This document shows positions 33 through 40,746 of a DNA stretch of 64,000 bases, piece by piece. Under the pieces are notes generated by a model. The model did not search any database, was not told the origin of the DNA, and was given only the letters and a program-made list of their open reading frames with translations. The stretch lies in the NCBI GenBank assembly GCA_016787295.1, contig JAEUUX010000179.1, positions 1-64,000 on the forward strand, written 5' to 3'. How positions within the stretch are numbered: the first letter of the stretch is position 1; each line of letters starts with the position of its first letter. A program made the position numbers and the translations under genes. The stretch comes from Chitinophagales bacterium. Lineage in GTDB: Bacteria > Bacteroidota > Bacteroidia > Chitinophagales > UBA2359.

Positions 33-3000
33 TTATTGAATAATAACTAATTTCTCGACCTTGCTTTCTGAGGATAACTTGCAATAGTAAATCCCGCTAT
101 TCAGGTAGTTAGTGTTTATCCAAGTATTCTGCCCATTAATATGTTCTGATTTTACCAATCTGCCGTTTACGTCATAGATATACAAGGTTTCGGGGGTCGT
201 AAAGTTATTGACAGATAGCGTAAAGCCGTCATTGGTGGGATTGGGCGAAATTTTGAACGAACTATTTGAAATTACATCAGACAAATAGTTCCCTTTCTCT
301 CCTTCAATATTCCGCACATAATCAAACCCAAAGTAAGTAGCCAAGGCACTTTCGGCAAGGGTTTGGTGACGACTATTGCGCTGACGGCTATACTGTTCAA
401 GGATAGATTTGGTGGGAGTCATGCGTCCGCCTGTATTGCCCTGTAACTCGTTGAGAATGGCAATATAGATGTTCTTAAACTCGGTGTTTTCTGCATCGTT
501 GGGCAACATATCGAGCAGTTCGCGGGCGTGTGCATATTCGCCACGGTCGGCGTAGGTGCCTACCAAAAGGCGAATAGCCCAGTCGGTATTCAGGCAATCC
601 AAGAGGTTCAATAGGCTGTCTGTTTGGTCGGTGTCCAACATACGGCTGATGGCTGCCAGCAAATTGCTATTGCTTGTATTGGTATTCGCACAGCCCTGAA
701 TGGGGTCTTCATAAGGAGGGAAAGTAATGGTGCAAGAGGTATTGTACACAGGTGTTGGGCTACCTAATACAACATTGCAACCTTGAGCATCAATAATAGC
801 CGCATTATTTACATTTTGTGGCAGGCTTTGGGGGCTATTATCTGTTCGGAGGGTGAGTTTGTTGCTGGTACTAAAGAACGTATTGCCCGATTCAATATAG
901 ATATGCTCGCCCGTTGCAGGAAGCGTGGGCGCTCCATAGATATAATGGAAGTGGTTGCGAAGGGCTTTGCTACTTTGTTCAGGGTCACAAGCTCCCTGCG
1001 GGTCTAATTGTGCTGAGGTATCAAAATACCAGTCTTTTTGGCAGGCATCATAGCTATTGCATTGCATTTGAAGGAGGCGGTCATTATTGGAGAATCGGGT
1101 CGCTTCTTGAAATCTGCCTGTAAACTCGTTATTCTTCACATTGGTTGGATAAGCCGTATAAAAGGTATTATCGGCTATTAAACCCCGTGCATAGCTACTG
1201 TTTTGTGCCGCAAAAAAATCGTTATCTAAAACGTGTACTGACTTAGAACCAAACAGATTGACACCATAAGCATCAACGGTAGATGTTCCGCTGGGGATAT
1301 TGAACTGGTTGTGTTCTATTTTTCCTCCCACCACATTGTTCATCGTCACCCCTTTGGTCACATTATTAAAATAGTTGTTGACAACCTGAACCGCTTTGAT
1401 GGTCGTTAAGGTATTGTAGGCATCAATACCTTTAAAAAGGTCTTGAAAGATATTGTTACTTTGGATATACACCTTGTCGTTGGTAATGCGAATACCCGTA
1501 CCGCGGTCTTCTCCTGATAGGTTTTCGGTGGTAAACAGGTTTTCTTCTATCAATAAAGTTGGCGTACTGCTGGAGCTATTGAGGCTAATGCATCCATATT
1601 TTTGGGTAGTGGGACAAACAAAAGGCTCTGTTTTTTTGAATTCACAGTGCGTAATAACGCTCCGTTGCACACCACCTTGAAGAGCAGTTGTCACATTTTG
1701 CATTCCCATTTTGATATCCAAAAGGTTATTGCGGAAATTAGCATCAGAAGCGTAAATAATACCACCCGCTACAATAAGCGTCAATCCACCCGAAGTAGAA
1801 GTGCTTTGAGAGGCTACGGCTACTTTGGCATCTCGAATAGTCCCTTCGGTTTCGATTCGCACTATGCCGTGGTTGGTACTTCCGTTGGCTAAATAAGTGG
1901 TGGGCGATGGGTGAGCCACTTGCCAGTCTCCATCTACCACTACCCCTCGCCAGCAGGTATTGGAGCAGGCATCGCCGCGTAAAACGCTATTTTCTTTCAA
2001 GAACAAAACTGCATTTTTAGCCACATCAATACCTGCGTTTTCGCCTACCATTTCAACAGTTGTGCTGTTTTTTATGATTAGTCGCTTTCCATTGGGTATA
2101 ATTACCTTGCCTGCCACGCGTATACTACTGAGTGGGCTATCCCATGTCTCTATATCTCCTACTCTATTGCCTAAGGCAGGAGTCGTGGTACCGACGATGT
2201 AGTCACCCGAGAAGTCGACTGGTTGGATTTGGTTGGAAGAGACGGTTTGTTGGACGGTGGTGGTGCAAGTATGCGGATTTCCATCAATATCGATACCCAC
2301 CATGGAGGCTGTGGCAGTATAGACACCCGCTTGGTTCACGCCTATAGTAGCTGGATTATTAACAGAAGTTGTTCCTGTCGCTCCTGTTGACCAGGTCACA
2401 GGGAAACTGTTGGTTCCTTGTGTTGTAAGTTGTAATGTCGTAGCACAATCGGTCACTAAGGTGTTCATAGCAACATTGGGAGCAGGATAATGGTCTAACC
2501 AAAGTGCTGCATATCCTGTACAACCATTGGCATCGGTTACAATTACATTGCGTATTCCCGCACCAGAGGTAGCCCCATCAATGTGTAAAGTCGGTGATGT
2601 TCCGAGTATTTCGTCAGGTGTAATTGGCGGAGTGGGATCCAAAACCCAAGTAAAACTACTGTAAGGTGTGGTTGTTGACAAATCAATGCTGGTGTTACTA
2701 CAAAACGCATTGGAAGGCGGATTGTTGGATTGTATAGTCGGGTTTGGACTATCATGTACTATTATATTTCCAGTATCACTTGCCGTACAGCCATTGGCTG
2801 CCGTAACCGTAACAGTATAGACTCCTGACCCACTTGGATATATGATAGTTGTTGGAGTAGTAATGCCATTTGACCATGTTTGAGCAATAGCAGTATTGCC
2901 TGTTGTTGTATAGCCTAAATTATATCCCAGAGGATTCTGTCCGAACGTATCTTCGCCGCAAAAAACAGCATCTGGCACAGTAACATGTACGGCGGGGGTT

Positions 3001-4412
3001 TTTACAACTATGCGGTCTGTGCCTGTACAGCCCGCACTATTAGTAACAGTAACCGTATAAGTGCCTGGTGTCGAAACTGTAATAGTAGGCGTTGTTGCTC
3101 CATTTGACCAAGCATAACTAGCAGTGCTCCAATTAGAAGAGGAACTGAGCGTTGTGCTAGCACCTTGATCTATACAAATAAAATCTTCATTGCCACTATT
3201 GCCAACGGTACAAGTGGTTAAATAGGGGTTTTGTCCATTAATAGCTGCCTCTATACCCGTACTCACCACAATTGTAGGGCGGTTATTAATGTAGTTATGT
3301 ATAGCATTGATCTGTGATTGGGTAAAAGCATGTCCATAAAAATGTCCCCCTGCATAATTCATAACATTGTTATCTATTTCTATAGGTTCGTTACAAGCCC
3401 GGAATCCCATAGGATTTGTAGTAGCTAAGGTTGGATCTGTCCACAAATGGTTGCAATCATTACAAGGTGGAGTATCCTCGGTGTTATCTGGGTTGTACCA
3501 TGGGCCAGGGGCATTCCATGCTACTGGATTATAATTGGAATTACAAGCATCGTTATAATCTCCATCACCACTAGTACTAGGTGGAACAGTAATATCTGTT
3601 ACATTGTGATTTTCATCAAAGAACAAACAGTCATTACAATTTGTTGAAGGGCAACTATACCTGAAGAAATTATGGTTCAGTCCCATAGCATGTGATAACT
3701 CATGCAAGGCAGTACCAGCTGAACAAAGATCACAACCAGTACCTAGATAAGAATAAATTAATCCATAACCATAACTAGGTCCAGCAGAGTATCCACCACA
3801 ACCACTACCAAGTGAACTAACAATTAGCGTTAAAGCGTTACTAGCCAATGTAACACCAGCCGGGTTTGTAGCATTCGGAGCATATTGGATGGATCCTAAA
3901 ACAAAACGAAAACCAGGATCGGGAGCTGGAGGAGGCATGGTCCATGTCCACCCATCAGGTTCATAATGCGGGGTGCCGTATGTAACATTTGCCTCAGGCG
4001 AATAATACAGCCAACCATTACCTATATTCATAGGAATGTTGTGTGACAGCAGATCATTCATTCGGATAATTATGGCATTAGAATAATCTAATCCTGTGTA
4101 GTTTGGTCCGATGGGAGAGCTTGTGGCGGTATGGTTGCCTGATCCAATAAAAGCAACATTTACACGAATATACTTCAAACATGCCCAATCAGGTGGTTTG
4201 CTGTAATTTATAGCAGCACTAGCAGGATCGTTAGAAAAATCTGTGGTGCAAGAGAAATCTTGTTGACTCCAGACTATATGACTACTTCCAATCATAGTAC
4301 AAAGAATGAAGAACAACAATTTACTTCCTACCCTAATCTGCAATAGGGCAAAATAAATAGCGTTACTCAAATAATTCATAACAATAAAAATAAGGTTGGT
4401 TATAATAGCCAT
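33..4412 (-). CDS. Secreted M43-like metalloprotease with beta-helix region and T9SS sorting domain
   Basis: A 1459-aa secreted protein. A hydrophobic signal segment lies near residues 30-50 and ends in VWSQQ. A zinc-binding metzincin motif HELSHAMGLNH sits at about residues 237-247, and a Met-turn-like VMNYAGG at about 350-356. Together these match the M43 (pappalysin/cytophagalysin) peptidase family. Next come Gly/Thr-rich Ig-like or SprB-like repeats (about 400-720) and a stretch resembling a right-handed parallel beta-helix (about 740-1130). The last 75 residues (ISPNPTNDGF ... SGIYYCKL ... KLVIIQ) are a typical type A T9SS C-terminal sorting domain, so the protein should be exported by T9SS and attached to or released from the surface. 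The start is uncertain: Met12 would shorten the leader. The substrate is unknown. The fusion of a peptidase to a beta-helix is less usual than a plain M43 protein. Confidence 0.85.
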   Translation of the reverse strand: MAIITNLIFIVMNYLSNAIYFALLQIRVGSKLLFFILCTMIGSSHIVWSQQDFSCTTDFSNDPASAAINYSKPPDWACLKYIRVNVAFIGSGNHTATSSPIGPNYTGLDYSNAIIIRMNDLLSHNIPMNIGNGWLYYSPEANVTYGTPHYEPDGWTWTMPPPAPDPGFRFVLGSIQYAPNATNPAGVTLASNALTLIVSSLGSGCGGYSAGPSYGYGLIYSYLGTGCDLCSAGTALHELSHAMGLNHNFFRYSCPSTNCNDCLFFDENHNVTDITVPPSTSGDGDYNDACNSNYNPVAWNAPGPWYNPDNTEDTPPCNDCNHLWTDPTLATTNPMGFRACNEPIEIDNNVMNYAGGHFYGHAFTQSQINAIHNYINNRPTIVVSTGIEAAINGQNPYLTTCTVGNSGNEDFICIDQGASTTLSSSSNWSTASYAWSNGATTPTITVSTPGTYTVTVTNSAGCTGTDRIVVKTPAVHVTVPDAVFCGEDTFGQNPLGYNLGYTTTGNTAIAQTWSNGITTPTTIIYPSGSGVYTVTVTAANGCTASDTGNIIVHDSPNPTIQSNNPPSNAFCSNTSIDLSTTTPYSSFTWVLDPTPPITPDEILGTSPTLHIDGATSGAGIRNVIVTDANGCTGYAALWLDHYPAPNVAMNTLVTDCATTLQLTTQGTNSFPVTWSTGATGTTSVNNPATIGVNQAGVYTATASMVGIDIDGNPHTCTTTVQQTVSSNQIQPVDFSGDYIVGTTTPALGNRVGDIETWDSPLSSIRVAGKVIIPNGKRLIIKNSTTVEMVGENAGIDVAKNAVLFLKENSVLRGDACSNTCWRGVVVDGDWQVAHPSPTTYLANGSTNHGIVRIETEGTIRDAKVAVASQSTSTSGGLTLIVAGGIIYASDANFRNNLLDIKMGMQNVTTALQGGVQRSVITHCEFKKTEPFVCPTTQKYGCISLNSSSSTPTLLIEENLFTTENLSGEDRGTGIRITNDKVYIQSNNIFQDLFKGIDAYNTLTTIKAVQVVNNYFNNVTKGVTMNNVVGGKIEHNQFNIPSGTSTVDAYGVNLFGSKSVHVLDNDFFAAQNSSYARGLIADNTFYTAYPTNVKNNEFTGRFQEATRFSNNDRLLQMQCNSYDACQKDWYFDTSAQLDPQGACDPEQSSKALRNHFHYIYGAPTLPATGEHIYIESGNTFFSTSNKLTLRTDNSPQSLPQNVNNAAIIDAQGCNVVLGSPTPVYNTSCTITFPPYEDPIQGCANTNTSNSNLLAAISRMLDTDQTDSLLNLLDCLNTDWAIRLLVGTYADRGEYAHARELLDMLPNDAENTEFKNIYIAILNELQGNTGGRMTPTKSILEQYSRQRNSRHQTLAESALATYFGFDYVRNIEGEKGNYLSDVISNSSFKISPNPTNDGFTLSVNNFTTPETLYIYDVNGRLVKSEHINGQNTWINTNYLNSGIYYCKLSSESKVEKLVIIQ

Positions 4413-31466: not shown

Positions 31467-31503
31467 GGATAGGATTGTGGTTTATATGCGTTGTAAAAAG
31501 CCG

Positions 31504-31534
31504 CAAAGGTAGCTATTCTTGGGCAGATGAGCAA
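31504..31534 (-). promoter_or_regulatory. Promoter of the aspartate kinase gene
   Basis: On the minus strand TTG (plus 31532-31534), a 20-base spacer, then TACCTTTG (plus 31504-31511). It lies about 40 bp upstream of the start codon and fits the phylum consensus very well. No leader peptide or attenuator was recognised. Confidence 0.65.
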
Positions 31535-31581
31535 ATAAATGTGAAAAATCCGTTTTTGTGTGATTATTGTGCAAAAAACAT

Positions 31582-31630
31582 ACTATTGTTCCATTTGCGT
31601 TAAATAGTCCGATAATAACGCATTGATTTA
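31582..31630 (+). repeat. Partial copy of repeat A flank
   Basis: Matches only the left flank of the extended repeat at 32673 (ATTGTTCCATTTGCGTTAAA ... ATAACGCATTGATTT). The GC-rich core is missing. Confidence 0.7.
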
Positions 31631-31812
31631 TACTAAATTGAATACAGTATTCGGATTTTGTAAAATGTTGACAGTCGAATAATTGCGGTCACAAAAAACG
31701 CACATCTGCTTACACTATTTTCGTCACCCGAAATAGTGCTGTAGTCGGTCGTTGAGGCATGAAAGTCACAGCTAAACAGACAAAAAACGATAAACTGCCT
31801 CAACGATTGCCT

Positions 31813-31895
31813 ACATTTTGTGGTAGCTAATACAATAAAACAGACAAAATGCCTACGATTTCGCTTGCTACCACAAAATTAAGCAAAGACCACAG
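31813..31895. repeat. Dispersed repeat family C with inverted ends
   Basis: TTTTGTGGTAGC and GCTACCACAAAA are inverted around a ~45-base centre, then AATTAAGCAAAGACCACAG. The same arrangement recurs at 45157-45243 with a different centre, so the ends are conserved and the interior is not. It resembles a small MITE-like element. Confidence 0.65.
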
Positions 31896-32109
31896 CACGC
31901 CGGACGAATCCACTCGAAAAAGAACACCTTTTTTTGCTACTTTTTTGGGTGAGCAAAAAAGTAGAATCACCATTTGATGCTTACGATAATAGTATTTCGA
32001 GGAATGGTAAATTGCTGTTAATTGATGTTGCATTTTGAGACGAGTACGTAACATCATTCATTATCAAATCCGAAAAGTAATTTCAATTCAGTATATCTTG
32101 TTGAGTAGC

Positions 32110-32144
32110 GTTTCTCCGTAGGTAGGGTTTAAACCCTACGGAGA
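32110..32144. repeat. Palindrome built on GTTTCTCCGTAGGG
   Basis: GTTTCTCCGTA-GGTAGGGTTT faces AAACCCTACGGAGAAAC. A partial relative (GGGTTTAAACCCTACG ... GGAGAAACG) lies near 32890-32921. It is not next to a gene end, so it is more likely a repeat than a terminator. Confidence 0.6.
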
Positions 32145-32336
32145 AACAAACAAGTACTGTCACCTGACAAGTTTGATAACGACATTAAAAAGTAGTTTTA
32201 GCTTGTGTTGTTCTAAAAAAATGACAAATGCGAAACAATATTTGATAATGACAATCTGATAAGTACCTTATCAAGGCCTTATTTGTTATTATCCAAACAA
32301 CCCAATTAGCTGACAAGATTACCAGCTCAAAATAAT

Positions 32337-32401
32337 AAAAACCCCGATGGGGTGACACATTATTCGACAAAACATGACATCATTTCACCCCGTCGGGGTT
32401 T
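32337..32401. repeat. CCCCG-type hairpin element
   Basis: AAAACCCCGATGGGGTGACA and TTTCACCCCGTCGGGGTTTA bracket ATTCGACAAAACATGACATC. Two very similar elements occur at 33968-34028 and 34284-34344, where GACGGGG/CTTCGGGG variants keep the pairing. Each arm is itself palindromic (CCCCGTCGGGG). Confidence 0.75.
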
Positions 32402-32581
32402 ATGCCTTTTTTGTTCCGTTTTTTTTGCTATAAACCTATCACCCTTTCAGGGTTTATTTAAATACTTTCTCCTCGTTGCTATTTTCAGAAATACCACTTA
32501 ATAATGTTGCTATCAAAGTATTAACTTGAAGAACTGCTTATGCTATCTCGTGCTATCATATCTTCTCACCACGCGTTGGAC

Positions 32582-32628
32582 AAACCAAAGACATCGGACG
32601 TTTTTAAAACATCCGATGTCTTTGGTTT
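32582..32628. repeat. Perfect 17-bp inverted repeat
   Basis: AAACCAAAGACATCGGA and its reverse complement surround a 13-base loop and are followed by T residues. There is no gene immediately upstream on either strand. It may be an orphan terminator or a short mobile palindrome. Confidence 0.6.
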
Positions 32629-32672
32629 TTGTGAGCTATAAGGTTTCTTTGTGATAGAACATTACAAAGATA

Positions 32673-32858
32673 ACTACTGTTCCATTTTGCTTAAATAGTC
32701 CGGTAATAACACATTGGTTTTTTTGGGCGTTTCCCTGCGGGTCGGGCTGCTGCGGGCTTCGCTTTGCTTCGGTGCTGCGTTGCTCTCCGCACTGGCTAAC
32801 GCCACCCTCCGCATCCCTAACGCGCTTCGCCATTCAAACAAAAATATCGTTATTTTTT
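32673..32858 (+). repeat. Dispersed repeat family A, extended copy
   Basis: Same organisation as the 9478-9660 copy, on the opposite strand: an ACTGTTCCATTTTGCTTAAA flank, a core beginning GGGCGTTTCCCTGCGGGTCG (32725-32840), then a CAAAAATATCGTTATTTTTT flank. The core has scattered substitutions relative to the others. Confidence 0.85.
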
Positions 32859-33014
32859 ACGACACAATAGATAAAACGCAACAGTAGAGCGGGTTTAAAC
32901 CCTACGCTATGGAGAAACGTTAACGATAAGATTAAACTAAAAGACTATCAATGAACCTTGAAGAGGGACAAGGAAAAGCATAAGATTTTATACAAAAACT
33001 CGATGTTTAAGACA

Positions 33015-33047
33015 AACCCTTCGGAGGTTTTGAACCTCCGAAGGGTT
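33015..33047. repeat. Perfect 15-bp palindrome
   Basis: AACCCTTCGGAGGTT and AACCTCCGAAGGGTT around a 3-base loop. It sits between repeat copies, with no gene to terminate. Confidence 0.6.
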
Positions 33048-33066
33048 AAAATCATTAAAAACACGA

Positions 33067-33129
33067 TGGGTTTCGCCCTCCGCATCCCTAACGCGCTTCG
33101 CCATTCAAACAAAAATATCGTTATTTTTT
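33067..33129 (+). repeat. Truncated copy of repeat A
   Basis: Only the right end (GCCCTCCGCATCCCTAACGC ... CAAAAATATCGTTATTTTTT) is present, 210 bp after the complete copy. This indicates partial deletion or duplication. Confidence 0.75.
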
Positions 33130-33161
33130 CCAACAAAATAGATAAAACGGAACACTACTAA

Positions 33162-33779
33162 CTATCGCACCATTATTGTAGCAAGTCCGCTCCAATTGCT
33201 GATGCCATTGATATTGATGGCTCGCACTTGCGCCCAAATCACCGTGCCACGCTCAATGCCACGCAAAAGTGCGCGCGTGCTAAATGCCAAATCGGTGCTT
33301 TGCCATAGCTCTTCACCTTCTTTTCGCCAGCGAACTTCGTAGACGGCAGCATTTGCAACCCCTTTGTATCGCACCAATGCTTCGCCGCTCAATTTGCTAT
33401 CTAATAGGCGAACATTTTCGAGAGTGCTGGGAGGTATGCCGCGTGTAGGTTTTTTGATCAGTTCAAAACCTGTGGCTAAAATACTCGATTCGTTGGTGTC
33501 GGCATGGTCTTCGATGCAACTTGCCCAAAGTACAAGGGTATGCACCAATGCTTTACGAGCTTCGTTTTTGGCAGTTACCGCCAATCTGCCTCTATCGGCT
33601 GCTGCGGCTAATTTTTCTTTATAGGTGGCGATGTTTGTTTTAAACACATCGACCGTCGGGTGAATATTGTCGAACAAGGGAGAATGGGGGATACAAGTAT
33701 CTATTTTCTCTGCTATTGCTAATAGTTTCGCATCGGTTTGTCGAGCAAAGGATTTCAAAATTCGGTTCATAATCGTCAA
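33162..33779 (-). CDS. Fibronectin type III-like domain protein
   Basis: 205 aa. The N-terminal ~110 residues are helical and charged (YKEKLAAAADRGRLAVTAKN, then an ALVHTLVLWASCIEDHA helix). Residues about 115-205 look like a fibronectin type III beta-sandwich (VRYKGVANAAVYEVRWRKEG, AQVRAININGISNWSG). There is no signal peptide. Proteins of this two-part layout are frequent as short hypotheticals in Bacteroidota and their function is unknown. It is the only convincing gene within the 31.5-35.2 kb repeat region, and it stands alone with repeats immediately on both sides. Confidence 0.75.
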   Translation of the reverse strand: MTIMNRILKSFARQTDAKLLAIAEKIDTCIPHSPLFDNIHPTVDVFKTNIATYKEKLAAAADRGRLAVTAKNEARKALVHTLVLWASCIEDHADTNESSILATGFELIKKPTRGIPPSTLENVRLLDSKLSGEALVRYKGVANAAVYEVRWRKEGEELWQSTDLAFSTRALLRGIERGTVIWAQVRAININGISNWSGLATIMVR

Positions 33780-33854
33780 TTATTAATGGTTAATGGGGGT
33801 TTTGGGCAACTAAACGCAAAGGCTTTATGGGTAATTATCAATTGTTAATTGTTA

Positions 33855-34500
33855 ATGCTTGTCTTGAGCAATTAAAGTCCTTAGTTGACAAGATTACCAG
33901 CTCAAAATAATAAAAACCCTGATGGGGTGACACGTTTATAGCTTCAAAATAGCAGAATAATTAACATAAACCCCGACGGGGTGACATTATTCGACAAAAC
34001 ATGACATCATTTCACCCCTTCGGGGTTTATTTACCTTAGCATTTTTACCGTCATCCTTTTTACAATACCACCTAATGTCGTTATCTAATTGTTAATGGGT
34101 GTTTTGAGCAATTAAACGCAAAGGCTTTATGGGTAATTGTTAATTGTTAATTGTTAATTGTTAATGGTTAATGCTTGTCTTGAGCAATTAAAGGCATTAG
34201 CTGACAAGATTACCAGCTCAAAATAATAAAAACCCTGATGGGGTGACACGTTTATAGCTTCAGAATAGCAGAATAATTAACATAAACCCCGACGGGGTGA
34301 CATTATTCGACAAAACATGACATCATTTCACCCCTTCGGGGTTTATTTACCTTAGCATTTTTACCGTTATCCTTTTTACAATACCACCTAATGTCGTTAT
34401 CTAATTGTTAATGGGTGTTTTGAGCAATTAAACGCAAAAACTTTATGGGTAATTGTTAATTGTTAATGCTTGTCTTGAGCAATTAAACGCAAAAACTTTG
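33855..34500. repeat. Two tandem ~300-316-bp units plus a partial third
   Basis: Unit 1 starts at 33855 and unit 2 at 34171 (both ATGCTTGTCTTGAGCAATTA), with a partial third at 34468. Each full unit has GACAAGATTACCAGCTCAAA, a CCCTGATGGGGTGACA element, a long CCCCGACGGGG ... CCCCTTCGGGG hairpin, TTTACAATACCACCTAATGT and runs of TTAATTGTTAATTG. The units differ at few positions, so the duplication is recent. Confidence 0.85.
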
Positions 34501-34601
34501 GTATTATTGTGTGAGTTTGTTTTTTCTTGAAGAAATTTATTACTATGACGGAATAAAAGGACAATAGGTTGCAATTGGATAAATTTTTTTGTTCAATGGG
34601 T

Positions 34602-35084
34602 TATTGTTCGCTTACAATTGATTATTGTTCGCTTACAATTGATTATTGTTCGCTTACAATTGATTATTGTTCGCTTACAATTGGTTATTGTTCGCTTACA
34701 ATTGGTTATTGTTCCCTTACAATTGGTTATTGTTCGCTTACAATTGGTTATTGTTCGCTTACAATTGGTTATTGTTCGCTTACAATTGGTTATTGTTCGC
34801 TTACAATGGGTTATTGTTCGCTTACAATTGGTTATTGTTCGCTTACAATGGGTCATTGTTCCCTTACAATTGGTTATTGTTCGCTTACAATGGGTTATTG
34901 TTCGCTTACAATGGGTTATTGTTCGCTTACAATGGGTTATTGTTCGCTTACAATGCGTCATTGTTCGCTTACAATGCGTCATTGTTCGCTTACAATGCGT
35001 CATTATTCCCTTACAATGGGTCATTGTTCGCTTACAATGGGTTATTGTTCGCTTACAATTGGTTATTGTTCGCTTACAATGAGA
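34602..35084. repeat. Minisatellite: 23 copies of a 21-bp unit
   Basis: The consensus unit is TATTGTTCGCTTACAATTGG plus T, in 23 uninterrupted copies. Variants (ATTGAT, ATTGGT, ATGGGT, ATGCGT; TTCGCTTACA versus TTCCCTTACA) are clustered along the array, as expected from stepwise unit duplication. Reading frames in both directions give heptapeptide repeats such as YCSLTIG, but there is no ATG start with upstream signals and the region is probably non-coding. Confidence 0.9.
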
Positions 35085-35193
35085 TAACAACATTTCATCT
35101 TTTCAGGGTTTATTTGAATGTTTTATTATTGTTGCCATTTTCTGAAATACCACCTAATGTCATTATCAAATTGCTGCGCTTTTGCGCGCAAAA

Positions 35194-35226
35194 AACCCTG
35201 AAAAAGCAAATCGCTTTTTCAGGGTT
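35194..35226 (-). terminator. fabG terminator
   Basis: AACCCTGAAAAAGC and its exact reverse complement around a 5-base loop, 22 bp after the minus-strand stop at 35248. A T-run follows on the minus strand. Confidence 0.8.
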
Positions 35227-35247
35227 AGATAGAGTAGGGGAGAGGGT

Positions 35248-36000
35248 TTAGGTGGTTAAGCCACCACAAACGCTGATGGTTTGTCCCGATACATAACTCG
35301 CCATGTCGGAGGCTAAGAAAACAGCTACATCTGCTACTTCTTTGCCTGTGCCAAAGCGACGAAGGGGGATATTTTCGACAAAAGTGCTTTTGACTTCTGC
35401 ACTTAGTGCGTCGGTCATGTCGGTTTCTATGTAACCGGGAGCAATGGCGTTGCAACGAATTTGGCGTGAGCCGATTTCTTGTGCCACGGATTTGGTGAAG
35501 CCGACAATACCTGCTTTGGAGGCGGCATAATTGGCTTGTCCTGCGTTGCCTTTCAGTCCGATGATGGACGTAATGTTGATGATACTGCCACTTTTTTGGC
35601 GCAACATCTGTTTGAGGCAATGTTTGGTGAGGTTAAAAACGGATTTGAGGTTATTGTCCAACACATCGTCCCACTGTTGCTCGGTGAGGCGGAGCAATAG
35701 GTTGTCGCGGGTGATTCCTGCATTGTTGACCAAAATGTCGATGCGTCCGCATGTTTTGGTGACGGTTTCGACCAATTCGGCGGCTTGTTGGAAGTTGGCA
35801 GCGTCGGATTGGAGGGCGATAAATTGTTGGTTGGGGTATTGTTGTTGTAGTTCTTGTACCAATTGTTCGGCTTTGGCAGCAGAACTGTGATAGGTAAAGA
35901 CTATGTTTGCCCCTTGCTGCGCCATGTTTTCGACGATGGCTTGCCCGATGCCGCGCGAACCGCCTGTAATAAGGGCTACTTTCCCTTGGAGTAATTGCAT
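35248..36000 (-). CDS. fabG: 3-oxoacyl-ACP reductase
   Basis: 250 aa of the short-chain dehydrogenase family. It reduces 3-oxoacyl-ACP with NADPH in fatty-acid elongation. Cofactor motif TGGSRGIG is at 12-19, NNAG at 92-95, and the catalytic set is Ser145, Tyr158 and Lys162 (YAASKAG). A C-terminal SGQTISVCGGL completes the tetramer-forming end. The similarity to FabG (QALSAEVK ... IPLRRFGTGKEVADVAVFLAS) is strong, though a closely related SDR with another substrate cannot be excluded. It is not in a fab operon; sucD lies about 290 bp upstream on the same strand behind a repeat. Confidence 0.9.
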   Translation of the reverse strand: MQLLQGKVALITGGSRGIGQAIVENMAQQGANIVFTYHSSAAKAEQLVQELQQQYPNQQFIALQSDAANFQQAAELVETVTKTCGRIDILVNNAGITRDNLLLRLTEQQWDDVLDNNLKSVFNLTKHCLKQMLRQKSGSIINITSIIGLKGNAGQANYAASKAGIVGFTKSVAQEIGSRQIRCNAIAPGYIETDMTDALSAEVKSTFVENIPLRRFGTGKEVADVAVFLASDMASYVSGQTISVCGGLTT

Positions 36001-37691: not shown

Positions 37692-37940
37692 TTAGTATAA
37701 ATACAAGAAATAGTCGTCATATTTGGCACTTTTTCCTGTGATAGGATTAATATCTAAACGTTGTGCTTCTACAGTAAAACCTTCAACAAATGCGGCACGC
37801 ACATCTACGAAGTTTTCGTAATCATTTAGACTCTTTGGTTCGAATGCTTTCCATTTTCCAATCCAATAAGAACCGAAATCATAGAACCTAATTTTTATTT
37901 TACGATGGGACACATAAAAGTAACGATAACTTAGTTTCAT
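37692..37940 (-). CDS. Small protein downstream of the restriction-modification gene
   Basis: 82 aa, not recognised. It is rich in aromatic residues (MKLSYRYFYVSHRKIKIRFYDFGSYW, about a third Tyr/Phe/Trp/Lys) and shows beta-strand character with no signal peptide. It overlaps the end of the restriction-modification gene by 4 bp in an ATGA, which suggests translational coupling and a role beside that enzyme, perhaps as a control or inhibitory protein. That role is inference only. Confidence 0.55.
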   Translation of the reverse strand: MKLSYRYFYVSHRKIKIRFYDFGSYWIGKWKAFEPKSLNDYENFVDVRAAFVEGFTVEAQRLDINPITGKSAKYDDYFLYLY

Positions 37941-40603
37941 AACAAGATTTGGTTAGAAAAATGGTTTTTGAACTGCTGTATTTCGTTTTTTAAGTTAATT
38001 TGTTGTTGCTTGAGTTGTAACCACCGCTCTACTATCTGGGTTTGTACTTCTATATCGGGCAAAGGAATCTCTAATTCACCCAACAAATCGAAGGTTAAGT
38101 TTTGGCGCACGGAACCTGATGTTGTAGCTCGTAAAAAACGATTGTACCAATTTGATGACAATACCAAGTATACATAATCATTGAGTATTGTTTCTTTTAC
38201 ACCAAAAACTATATAGGCAGGACTGATATAGTAACCATCAAACTCGTCATCAATAATCCCAATAGAACCTACGTTCACTCGATATGGATTGAATACCAAT
38301 TCTTCTTTTCGTACTTTTTTGTAGGCTTGGTTAAATGTTTCTCCTTTTTGAGTTAAATTTAAGTAAACACCTTCGCGATTGGTTACGCCCAAGATACAAA
38401 AATATTCTTCTGGATAGTTGAATAATTTTACTTTCTCGTTATGTTCATAGATATGGTCTTTTAGTTTTACTAAAGGGAAATTGGTTTGGAGTTCATAGAG
38501 GTAGTTTTTTGCATCCCAACGCACCAAATTACTGTACTGTACGATGGCTAATTTATCATCGTAGACAGTTTGTTGTTCAATAAATTGTCTGTATAATGTG
38601 GTTACTTTGGGCAAATCGTTATCAGCTATTAGGTCTCCTGTTGCATTAATGCCTACTTTATCTACATCAAACATAAAAATAGGGTAATTAAATGCTTTTT
38701 TTGCTCTGCTTCTGCCTTCTTGCTGCACCAAAACCTCAAGTTCTTTGAGACGTTTTTGAGCTATTTTTTTTTGTTGTTTTAGCTTTTCGTTCGCAACTTT
38801 AAAAGATTCGTCATTTTCGAAATCTTTGGGGTTTAATTTGGCGGACAGTGTTTGGGCTATATTATTACGTTCTTCGGTTTGCTCGGCATAAACATTGTTT
38901 TTTTGTTCTTGCAATACATTGTCCCAATTGTCTTTTTCGGCGGCGCTAAACTTTTGCCAAAATAGTAAACTGCAATTTATGTCGGCTCCACTTGACAAAA
39001 AAGTTTCTCTCGGCAAAGAAACAGTAGCAAGAATACGACCATTATCTTCTGCAAATTCTCGGACATATTTTTCTTGTGGATTATTGAATAAACCATTGGG
39101 TAATACTACTCCTACCTTGCCTTTTTCTTTCAACAAATTCATACAACGTTCAAGAAATAAAACTTGTGTGGTAATACTTTCGCTTTTGGGCAATTGAAAG
39201 GCTTTGAGGAGGTCTCCTGTGGTTTTCATGCCGAAGGGTGGATTAGTCAATATGCAATCGAATTTGTTGTCGGATATTTCGCCTACATTTACGAAGCCAT
39301 CGTGGTGATAAATGCCGCCGTGTCCGTCACCGTGCATAATCATGTTCATTTTGGCAGTACGTGCTGCTCGGTCATTGGCATCAACACCAAAAATACTGTG
39401 TTGTGCCAAATGGTATAGGCGTGAATGTGGGTTTGTGATGTCGCTATCTTTTTCTAATTGTTCGAAAAGCGCTAATATTTGTGTATTTTTTTCTGTTTCG
39501 CTCAATGTGGCATGGTGTTCGATAGCAGATTTTTTTTGCAGGTATTCGGTGTTGAGCGATTCGTGAATTTGTGCTTGTACTTTTTGGAAAAAACGAATCA
39601 AAAAACCACCACTACCACAAGCAGGGTCACAAGCAATTTGTCCTTCTTGTGGCTGTAGCATATCAATCATAAAATCTACAATAGGACGTGGCGTGAAAAA
39701 TTGTCCTAACGAGCTGCGCAAAAAAGTATCGCTTAAAAAGTTTTCGAAAGCAATACCTTTGGTGTCGACCGATGTTTCGGATAGGTTGTATTTTTCTAAT
39801 CGTTGAACAATAGCCTTGATGCTGGTGTTACTAAGGATTATCTTTTCATCGGATTTAAATATTTGACTTTTTCCAAACTCGCGCTTAGTTTTGTCAAACA
39901 TATCCTGCAAATAATCAGGATTATACCGTTCGGCGGTTTCTACCCAGTCTAAGCTGAATATATTTTGATGTTTTTGTGCTTTCAGGTTTCTTTCGGCATA
40001 GACTTTCATGAACAAAATTTTGGCAATTTCGTCAAATGCCAAAGTAGGGTCTAATTTTTCGTTGTTGCGAATGATATTATGGCAGGCTTTTAACACCTCT
40101 CTAAATTCTCCTTGTTTAAAAGTTTTTAGTTTCGCGAATAGGTTTTCGATTTCTTTATCGCTGGCATTGACAGCAGGGATATCTTCAATTTCCTCACGAT
40201 AGCCGGGTGATTTGTCTTTTTTTACGCGCCAAAATTTGGTTTCCAAGCTATTGTGTGTCACAAAAAAGGGGGCGTTATGGATTCGAGCATACAGTTCGCC
40301 CTGTAGATAATCTCTTTCTGTGATAATCACACTTTCTGCCTTGCATTCGACCACAATAAGCGGATTATTGTTTTTTTGTATGTCTTCGACACTACGGTAT
40401 ATGACAATATCGGCTCTTGCTTGTGCAGAACCCCTTCCTGTCAAATTTTCCTCTTCCAGCATTTGTTCCAAAGCATAGCCATAATGATTGACCAAAAGCA
40501 CTACAAATTGCTGTCTAACAACCTCTTCTGGTTTCTTGACTAACCATTTTTTGCGAATATGGCTAAAGACTTTACCATCTTTTTCTAAAAATTCGAGCGT
40601 CAT
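37937..40603 (-). CDS. Single-chain restriction-modification enzyme: nuclease, N6-adenine methylase and specificity domain
   Basis: 888 aa from the ATG at 40603 (MTLEFLEKDGKV); the frame is open to 40696, but that extension does not fit the family. Residues 1-190 are a type I HsdR N-terminal-like PD-(D/E)xK nuclease domain (Asp65 in ARADIVIY, Glu86-x-Lys88 in IVVECKAE). An HsdM-like N6-methylase follows, with DPACGSGGFL (motif I, near 328) and TNPPFGMKT (motif IV, near 454), then a coiled-coil (EKLKQQKKIAQKRLKELEVL). The C-terminus (~690-888) is a single HsdS-like target-recognition domain ending LPDIEVQTQIVERWLQLKQQQ. The layout corresponds to type IIG or combined type I-like enzymes that cut and methylate in one protein. 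The recognition site is unknown. Confidence 0.85.
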   Translation of the reverse strand: MTLEFLEKDGKVFSHIRKKWLVKKPEEVVRQQFVVLLVNHYGYALEQMLEEENLTGRGSAQARADIVIYRSVEDIQKNNNPLIVVECKAESVIITERDYLQGELYARIHNAPFFVTHNSLETKFWRVKKDKSPGYREEIEDIPAVNASDKEIENLFAKLKTFKQGEFREVLKACHNIIRNNEKLDPTLAFDEIAKILFMKVYAERNLKAQKHQNIFSLDWVETAERYNPDYLQDMFDKTKREFGKSQIFKSDEKIILSNTSIKAIVQRLEKYNLSETSVDTKGIAFENFLSDTFLRSSLGQFFTPRPIVDFMIDMLQPQEGQIACDPACGSGGFLIRFFQKVQAQIHESLNTEYLQKKSAIEHHATLSETEKNTQILALFEQLEKDSDITNPHSRLYHLAQHSIFGVDANDRAARTAKMNMIMHGDGHGGIYHHDGFVNVGEISDNKFDCILTNPPFGMKTTGDLLKAFQLPKSESITTQVLFLERCMNLLKEKGKVGVVLPNGLFNNPQEKYVREFAEDNGRILATVSLPRETFLSSGADINCSLLFWQKFSAAEKDNWDNVLQEQKNNVYAEQTEERNNIAQTLSAKLNPKDFENDESFKVANEKLKQQKKIAQKRLKELEVLVQQEGRSRAKKAFNYPIFMFDVDKVGINATGDLIADNDLPKVTTLYRQFIEQQTVYDDKLAIVQYSNLVRWDAKNYLYELQTNFPLVKLKDHIYEHNEKVKLFNYPEEYFCILGVTNREGVYLNLTQKGETFNQAYKKVRKEELVFNPYRVNVGSIGIIDDEFDGYYISPAYIVFGVKETILNDYVYLVLSSNWYNRFLRATTSGSVRQNLTFDLLGELEIPLPDIEVQTQIVERWLQLKQQQINLKNEIQQFKNHFSNQILL

Positions 40604-40746
40604 ATTTATAGTTATAAAGGTAAGCGTTTTGGGTGTTTTTTGTATTATGGCTGTTGATGTATGCTTATTTACCCAAAACCAGTTTTTCAGCCGCAAAAGT
40701 ACGCCCTTTTTTGGTTTTTTGGTAATACGATAAGCATAAAAAAATA

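Follow-up and report, generated by a model that had tools for sequence, protein, structure and literature searches.

Genomic context of the array

The window (the whole 64,000-nt stretch of DNA analysed) contains a tandem array of 21-bp units in the neighbourhood of fabG-like, succinyl-CoA-ligase-like and amino-acid-kinase genes (Table 1). An ORF at 33-4412 of the same contig carries a sorting domain of the T9SS, a system typical of Bacteroidota, to which the genome is assigned on this ground. A further gene of the window (37937-40696) encodes a DNA methyltransferase-like protein, with a best NCBIfam match (MADS2 methyltransferase) below the cut-off and a C-terminal stretch resembling a specificity subunit; judged by these similarities, the gene probably represents a type I restriction fusion. 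The left flank of the array has 75 matches in its own genome, and the array is therefore set in repeat-rich intergenic DNA. The sequence-only reading had placed other tandem repeats next to it, and two neighbouring repeats confirm this, a direct duplication of 316 bp and a 7-bp array. The duplicated module with its GC-rich hairpins (ACCCCGTCGGGGT) represents a large dispersed repeat family of this genome. A search of Rfam with the region 31500-36000 returned no matches.

Table 1. Features around the 21-bp array (window coordinates)
Position	Strand	Feature	Evidence
33162-33779	-	205-aa ORF, left neighbour, about 0.8 kb from the array, without Pfam match	ORF list, Pfam
33832-34467	.	316-bp direct duplication (two copies) bearing GC-rich hairpins; member of a dispersed intergenic repeat family	TRF and genome matches
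34134-34172	+	Heptamer array TAATTGT, 5.6 copies	TRF
34582-34602	+	Degenerate unit-length flank, possibly a decayed first unit	7/10 arm positions matching
34603-35085	+	21-bp array, 23 units: dyad ATTGT-TC[G/C]CTT-ACAAT and 5-nt variable spacer	TRF, cut at the dyad
35194-35226	-	Terminator-like stem-loop between fabG and the array	Folding; not flagged by consensus scan
35248-36000	-	fabG-like short-chain dehydrogenase gene (PF13561), right neighbour, read towards the array	Pfam

Structure and variation of the array

TRF places the array at 34594-35081 (period 21, 23.2 copies, 94% matches, 0% indels), and a cut at the dyad yields 23 full units from 34603 to 35085. Both agree with the sequence-only reading (23 copies of 21 bp at 34602-35084), and the lack of indels bears out the perfect register that it had described. 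A chance origin is ruled out for an array of 23 copies of 21 bp free of indels. Each unit combines a nearly invariant 16-nt dyad with a variable 5-nt spacer. Counted over all 23 units together, the ten arm positions show a single change, and the only variable position of the loop is altered in 3 units. Altogether 7 of the 21 columns vary, comprising all five of the spacer and two of the 16 in the dyad. The probability that all five spacer columns would fall among seven variable ones at random is 0.001 (hypergeometric), a figure that has to be read with the dyad/spacer boundary set post hoc and the duplicated units non-independent.

All four variants that had been described as arranged in blocks are present, albeit not all as blocks. 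ATTGAT fills units 1-3 and ATGCGT fills units 17-19, each as a solid block; ATTGGT, mostly in the left half, and ATGGGT, mostly in the right half, are distributed more loosely and alternate in the middle of the array. The array closes with ATGAGA. Since shared variants lie in contiguous blocks, the copies would have arisen through replication slippage or unequal exchange, by which such arrays probably grow. The earlier proposal of growth by unit duplication is likewise compatible with the data, as a non-coding minisatellite fits every test run. Promoter-like matches in nearly all units amount to one 9-of-12 match copied by the tandem structure and were given zero weight. Overall, the array is a genuine non-coding minisatellite, and an ordinary one when taken singly.

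Coding potential

The unit length is a multiple of three, and the array might accordingly code for a protein of seven-residue repeats. As anticipated from the letters, several frames are free of stops: four of six in the consensus, and three of six across the whole TRF array, where they open ORFs of 154-194 aa with the putative repeat peptides CSLTIGY, IVRLQLV or TNCKRTI. On the other hand, in any of the six frames only 1 or 2 of the 8 variant types are synonymous, so that purifying selection is apparent in no single reading frame of the array, and one frame gains two stops through the variants. Pfam searches with the array ORFs gave nothing above the curated cut-off apart from REST_helical (27.1 vs 27) on a minus-strand ORF, which is a coiled-coil-like chance match. 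The array sequence is also missing from 59 relatives (see below). The repeat protein was rejected on the mostly non-synonymous variants in all frames and the outcome of the Pfam search, and we regard it as extremely improbable. The sequence-only reading, which took the array as non-coding and its frames as open by chance, holds: no frame displays protein constraint, and homologous arrays elsewhere have other flanks. The same array in distant relatives, combined with translation, had been named as the finding that would point to a real protein; it is absent from every relative searched.

Distribution of the array sequence

When 59 further genomes from the same family and order were searched with the array sequence, none gave a match at E 0.001 or better. 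The sequence is thus found in one of the 60 genomes searched, its own, the genus being represented by this species alone. Within this genome, the 16-nt core also occurs on four other contigs (C78, C241, C69 and C151) with different flanks. The array on C78 has 15 units, of which 13 match a 15-nt pattern exactly and 2 deviate from it at one or two positions. All four arrays lie directly at the end of a contig or close to it, which makes the number of units in each uncertain; from their orientation, one may guess that the ends of C69 and C241 are two halves of one array. A phage search with the array returned no matches, and the dyad pair was not found in the viral contigs scanned.

A 21-bp period in the non-coding arrays of the genome

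Array periods were counted in the window and 60 stretches of its own genome (850,223 bp in total; TRF, period of at least 10, at least 2.5 copies). Twelve of the first 20 stretches had been picked for repeat matches (C14, C26, C32, C46, C52, C67, C70, C78, C83, C102, C119 and C135), and the remaining 40 were taken in numerical contig order, skipping contigs already sampled. All of them start at a contig start, which biases the sample towards arrays that break assemblies. Arrays were assigned as coding or non-coding by a crude ORF rule, which may miscall some arrays in short ORFs. Rows of 150 and 444 bp were counted as non-coding and are probably coding, and a 147-bp row looks CRISPR-like. A CRISPR-like look was noted on contig C83 (L111, 4622-6723), where the repeats GTAGCAACCCTTTTCCACTATCAGAATGGATTGTGAC are spaced by about 74 bp.

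Among the 39 non-coding arrays, the period is 21 in 19, an exact multiple of 21 in 30, and at most 1 bp off such a multiple in 35. The 23 coding arrays show a different picture, with multiples of 3 in 22 and multiples of 21 in 6. The same spacing is prominent where a 10-mer recurs in non-coding DNA: 1048 of 3540 identical pairs are 21 bp apart, compared with 1 pair at 20 bp and 96 pairs at 22 bp. After masking of the arrays, 22 of 463 close 10-mer repeats have the 21-bp spacing. The arrays are mostly unrelated to each other in sequence. Clustering of 58 array rows yielded 28 families, in 21 of which the shortest period is a multiple of 21; the chance of this is 1.5e-22 (assuming 1 in 21) or 7.6e-13 (1 in 7), under simple nulls and for a biased sample. 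The clustering was by single linkage (18 rows became chained together, reducing the number of families) and included flank loci of earlier matches (L002-L005, L017-L045), with some places taken twice. Longer periods of 42, 63, 84, 126 and 168 bp are also seen; some of them (42, 63) contain a 21-bp sub-period, which is absent from others (126, 168 and one 42). For example, the non-coding arrays of contig C20 (L101, 14465-19505) have periods of 126, 168, 126 and 336 bp; each period is a multiple of 21, with no 21-bp sub-period. Periods of an odd number of helical turns (31-32 and 52-53) are absent among the sampled non-coding arrays of this genome.

Six non-coding arrays, with periods of 29, 36, 21 (2.5 copies), 158, 14 and 16 bp, came from 419,602 bp of 16 genomes that belong to the same family but to other genera. 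At the level of the order, 132,913 bp from two genomes contained non-coding arrays of 14 and 24 bp. Within the sampled part of the family, the 21-bp lock is therefore no general feature. This locked length is a stronger fact than the array itself.

Relation to described repeat classes

According to the sections consulted of the 2021 paper by Subirana and Messeguer (PMC8161180), tandem repeats with a constant length of 20-21 or 52 nt occur in many bacterial groups and are generally non-coding, with variable, species-specific sequences. The authors note that 20-21 nt equal two helical turns, propose a nucleoid protein or small RNAs, and state that a characteristic short sequence occurs in most arrays of a species. 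In the same sections, Bacillus, Cyanobacteria and Actinobacteria are named, and the word Bacteroidetes is absent from the paper; neither "21 nt" nor "21 bp" appears in the sections consulted of their 2019 survey (PMC6749651).

The present genome resembles this class, insofar as those sections describe it, in having many arrays of one length with differing, species-specific and mostly non-coding sequences, the class being scattered over distant groups. One length of about 20-21 nt prevails in most of its non-coding arrays (19/39 at exactly 21, 30/39 at multiples), several sequence families coexist (28 from 58 rows), and non-coding status was assigned from the mostly non-synonymous changes for the window array and by the simple ORF rule for the others. 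The genome differs in being a Bacteroidota draft, in its additional periods of 42, 63, 84, 126 and 168 bp, and in having no demonstrable short motif common to all arrays. Among the 23 array units compared, the best 5-mer (CAAAA) occurs in 11, which does not exceed background (p 0.16 vs background windows). Overall, the window array and its genome can be classified, with a probability of about 0.6, as a new case of the described "constant size, variable sequence" tandem repeats of 20-21 nt. In this sense the genome, rather than the single array, which is ordinary by itself, appears as a clear new case.

Several other systems share some of these features. Borg repeats, as described in the sections consulted of PMC9879509, also form many genome-specific arrays of unrelated units that often end contigs and are nearly absent from relatives, similar to the genome-specific burst of arrays observed here. 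However, their units are perfect and A-biased, whereas those of the window array vary at 7 of 21 columns. Only 14-38% of intergenic Borg units are divisible by three, and those sections report no length lock. About half of the Borg arrays lie within ORFs, and Borgs are archaeal extrachromosomal elements; the window belongs to a bacterial contig with a T9SS domain. The varying units and the bacterial contig exclude Borg-type repeats. The array shares with CRISPR arrays the regular direct repeats and the combination of a conserved and a variable part. It lacks the unique spacers of about 30 nt between direct repeats: at a period of 21 bp, the variable part of 5 nt is too short for a spacer, and its variants recur between units.

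Heptamer repeats have a unit of 7 bp, whereas the 21-bp units of this genome are without a consistent 7-bp substructure; for 7.0-bp phasing inside the units, p was 0.03 for AA/TT, 0.007 for AA and 0.21 for TT, among 20 tests. Cyanobacterial STRR reportedly also belong to the heptamer repeats. The nearest parallel to the TAATTGT array, located 0.4 kb from the 21-bp array, is provided by the TAACTGA heptamer repeats, which the sections consulted of PMC4679880 describe as intergenic tandem arrays in some Bacteroidetes.

Possible causes of the shared length

The question posed by the described class is why repeats of unrelated sequence within a genome should share a period of 21 bp. This Bacteroidota genome, with 30 of 39 arrays at multiples of 21 and relatives in other genera lacking the lock, makes a sharp case for tracing the protein or repair step responsible. 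As 21 bp correspond to two helical turns, a DNA-binding or nucleoid protein would meet every unit from the same side, and the arrays may persist owing to such phased binding. We favor this explanation only tentatively, at less than even odds. Within the dyad sequence family, ATTGT...ACAAT would be the protein contact, with the 5-nt spacer free to vary. The lack of a clear dyad or shared motif in the other arrays, of AA/TT phasing and of odd-turn periods counts against phased binding, the last because helical phasing alone would also allow such periods. The dyad enrichment in other arrays is small (mean arm 3.33 vs 3.03 in shuffles, 18 arrays), and an arm of at least 5 is present in 7 of 23 array units vs 15% of background windows; the dyad as a general cause of the arrays of this genome is not supported by these arm-length comparisons. 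AA/TT phasing at 10.5 bp inside the units is absent (p 0.40). The individual dinucleotides are inconsistent, AA alone being positive (0/400 shuffles) and TT alone negative (p 0.77), and with 20 tests in all nothing was built on A-tract phasing.

The main rival is duplication in measured steps of 21 nt, with mutation rather than function setting the length. Tandem duplications of about 21 nt would come from a step of replication or repair specific to the lineage, e.g. one with a fixed stagger or loop size, and slippage would then expand them into functionless arrays. This would account for a fixed length combined with sequences unrelated between arrays and sharing no evident motif, for the sampled relatives of other genera lacking the lock, and for the variant blocks inside arrays. 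On the other hand, fresh two-copy duplications are not plentiful (the 22 of 463 close repeats that remain at 21 bp after masking), the dyad of the window array is conserved relative to its spacer, and, in the sections consulted of PMC8161180, the 20-21-nt size recurs in distant groups. We consider this process unlikely, albeit a serious contender. An assembly or sampling artefact could be suspected, given that many arrays end contigs, that overlaps of about 141 bp occur between contigs (C151 and C78), that every stretch begins at a contig start and that 12 of the 60 were picked for repeat matches. Nevertheless, the window array lies inside its contig, spans 483 bp and shows ordered variants; the lock reappears in the 40 stretches sampled by contig number and is absent from sampled relatives with similar contig size, and a loop in the assembly graph would favor no single period. 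An artefact is therefore highly improbable.

Transcription of the arrays into small regulatory RNAs of hairpin form, in keeping with the small RNAs proposed for the class (PMC8161180, sections consulted), would agree with the folding of two 89-nt array pieces, which as single-stranded DNA form more stable folds than their shuffled versions (z -3.9 and -4.2). This fold, however, follows from the repeated dyad, which is missing from most other arrays. Moreover, the terminator-like stem-loop stands between fabG and the array, and Rfam has no match; a small-RNA role appears very improbable.

Dyad arrays in other genomes

A scan of genome contigs for the ATTGT-N6-ACAAT dyad occurring twice in succession at 21 bp produced 51 stretches, 27 of them with at least 5 successive units and 11 with two units only. 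They come from Planctomycetaceae, Prevotellaceae, Odoribacteraceae, Tannerella, Treponema, Chitinophagaceae, Pedobacter, Hormoscilla and others, and their loops and spacers vary by genome. Many of the MAG series involved are presumably termite-gut sets. Since the scan preselected this dyad and used a single pattern, it shows wide occurrence, not that the dyad is special. The control read backward gave 0 matches in 9 of 9 genomes, which were picked for having matches. A functional cause common to these arrays across phyla, namely a widespread protein that polymerises on DNA at a two-turn step and prefers this dyad, is very improbable in our estimation; if it existed, the 21-bp dyad arrays would be nucleoprotein scaffolds.

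Among plasmids, 4 of 72,556 records match, all from Enterococcus faecalis and with repeats spaced 24 bp. In one of them (LR962148.1; L217, 600-680) the repeats TTGTTCCCTTATACA, at this 24-bp spacing, are like the core of the array unit and possibly represent iterons. We read the plasmid repeats as resembling the array by chance or in an iteron-like manner. In small samples of four genomes from the dyad scan, the non-coding periods were 21, 41 and 42 bp in G061, a single one of 45 bp in G060, a single one of 11 bp in G064, and none in G062. One of these genomes (G060) alone has 46 dyad-array matches. In three arrays from Odoribacteraceae (L074, L080 and L081) the loop is TCCGGA or CCCGGG, and the palindrome is retained.
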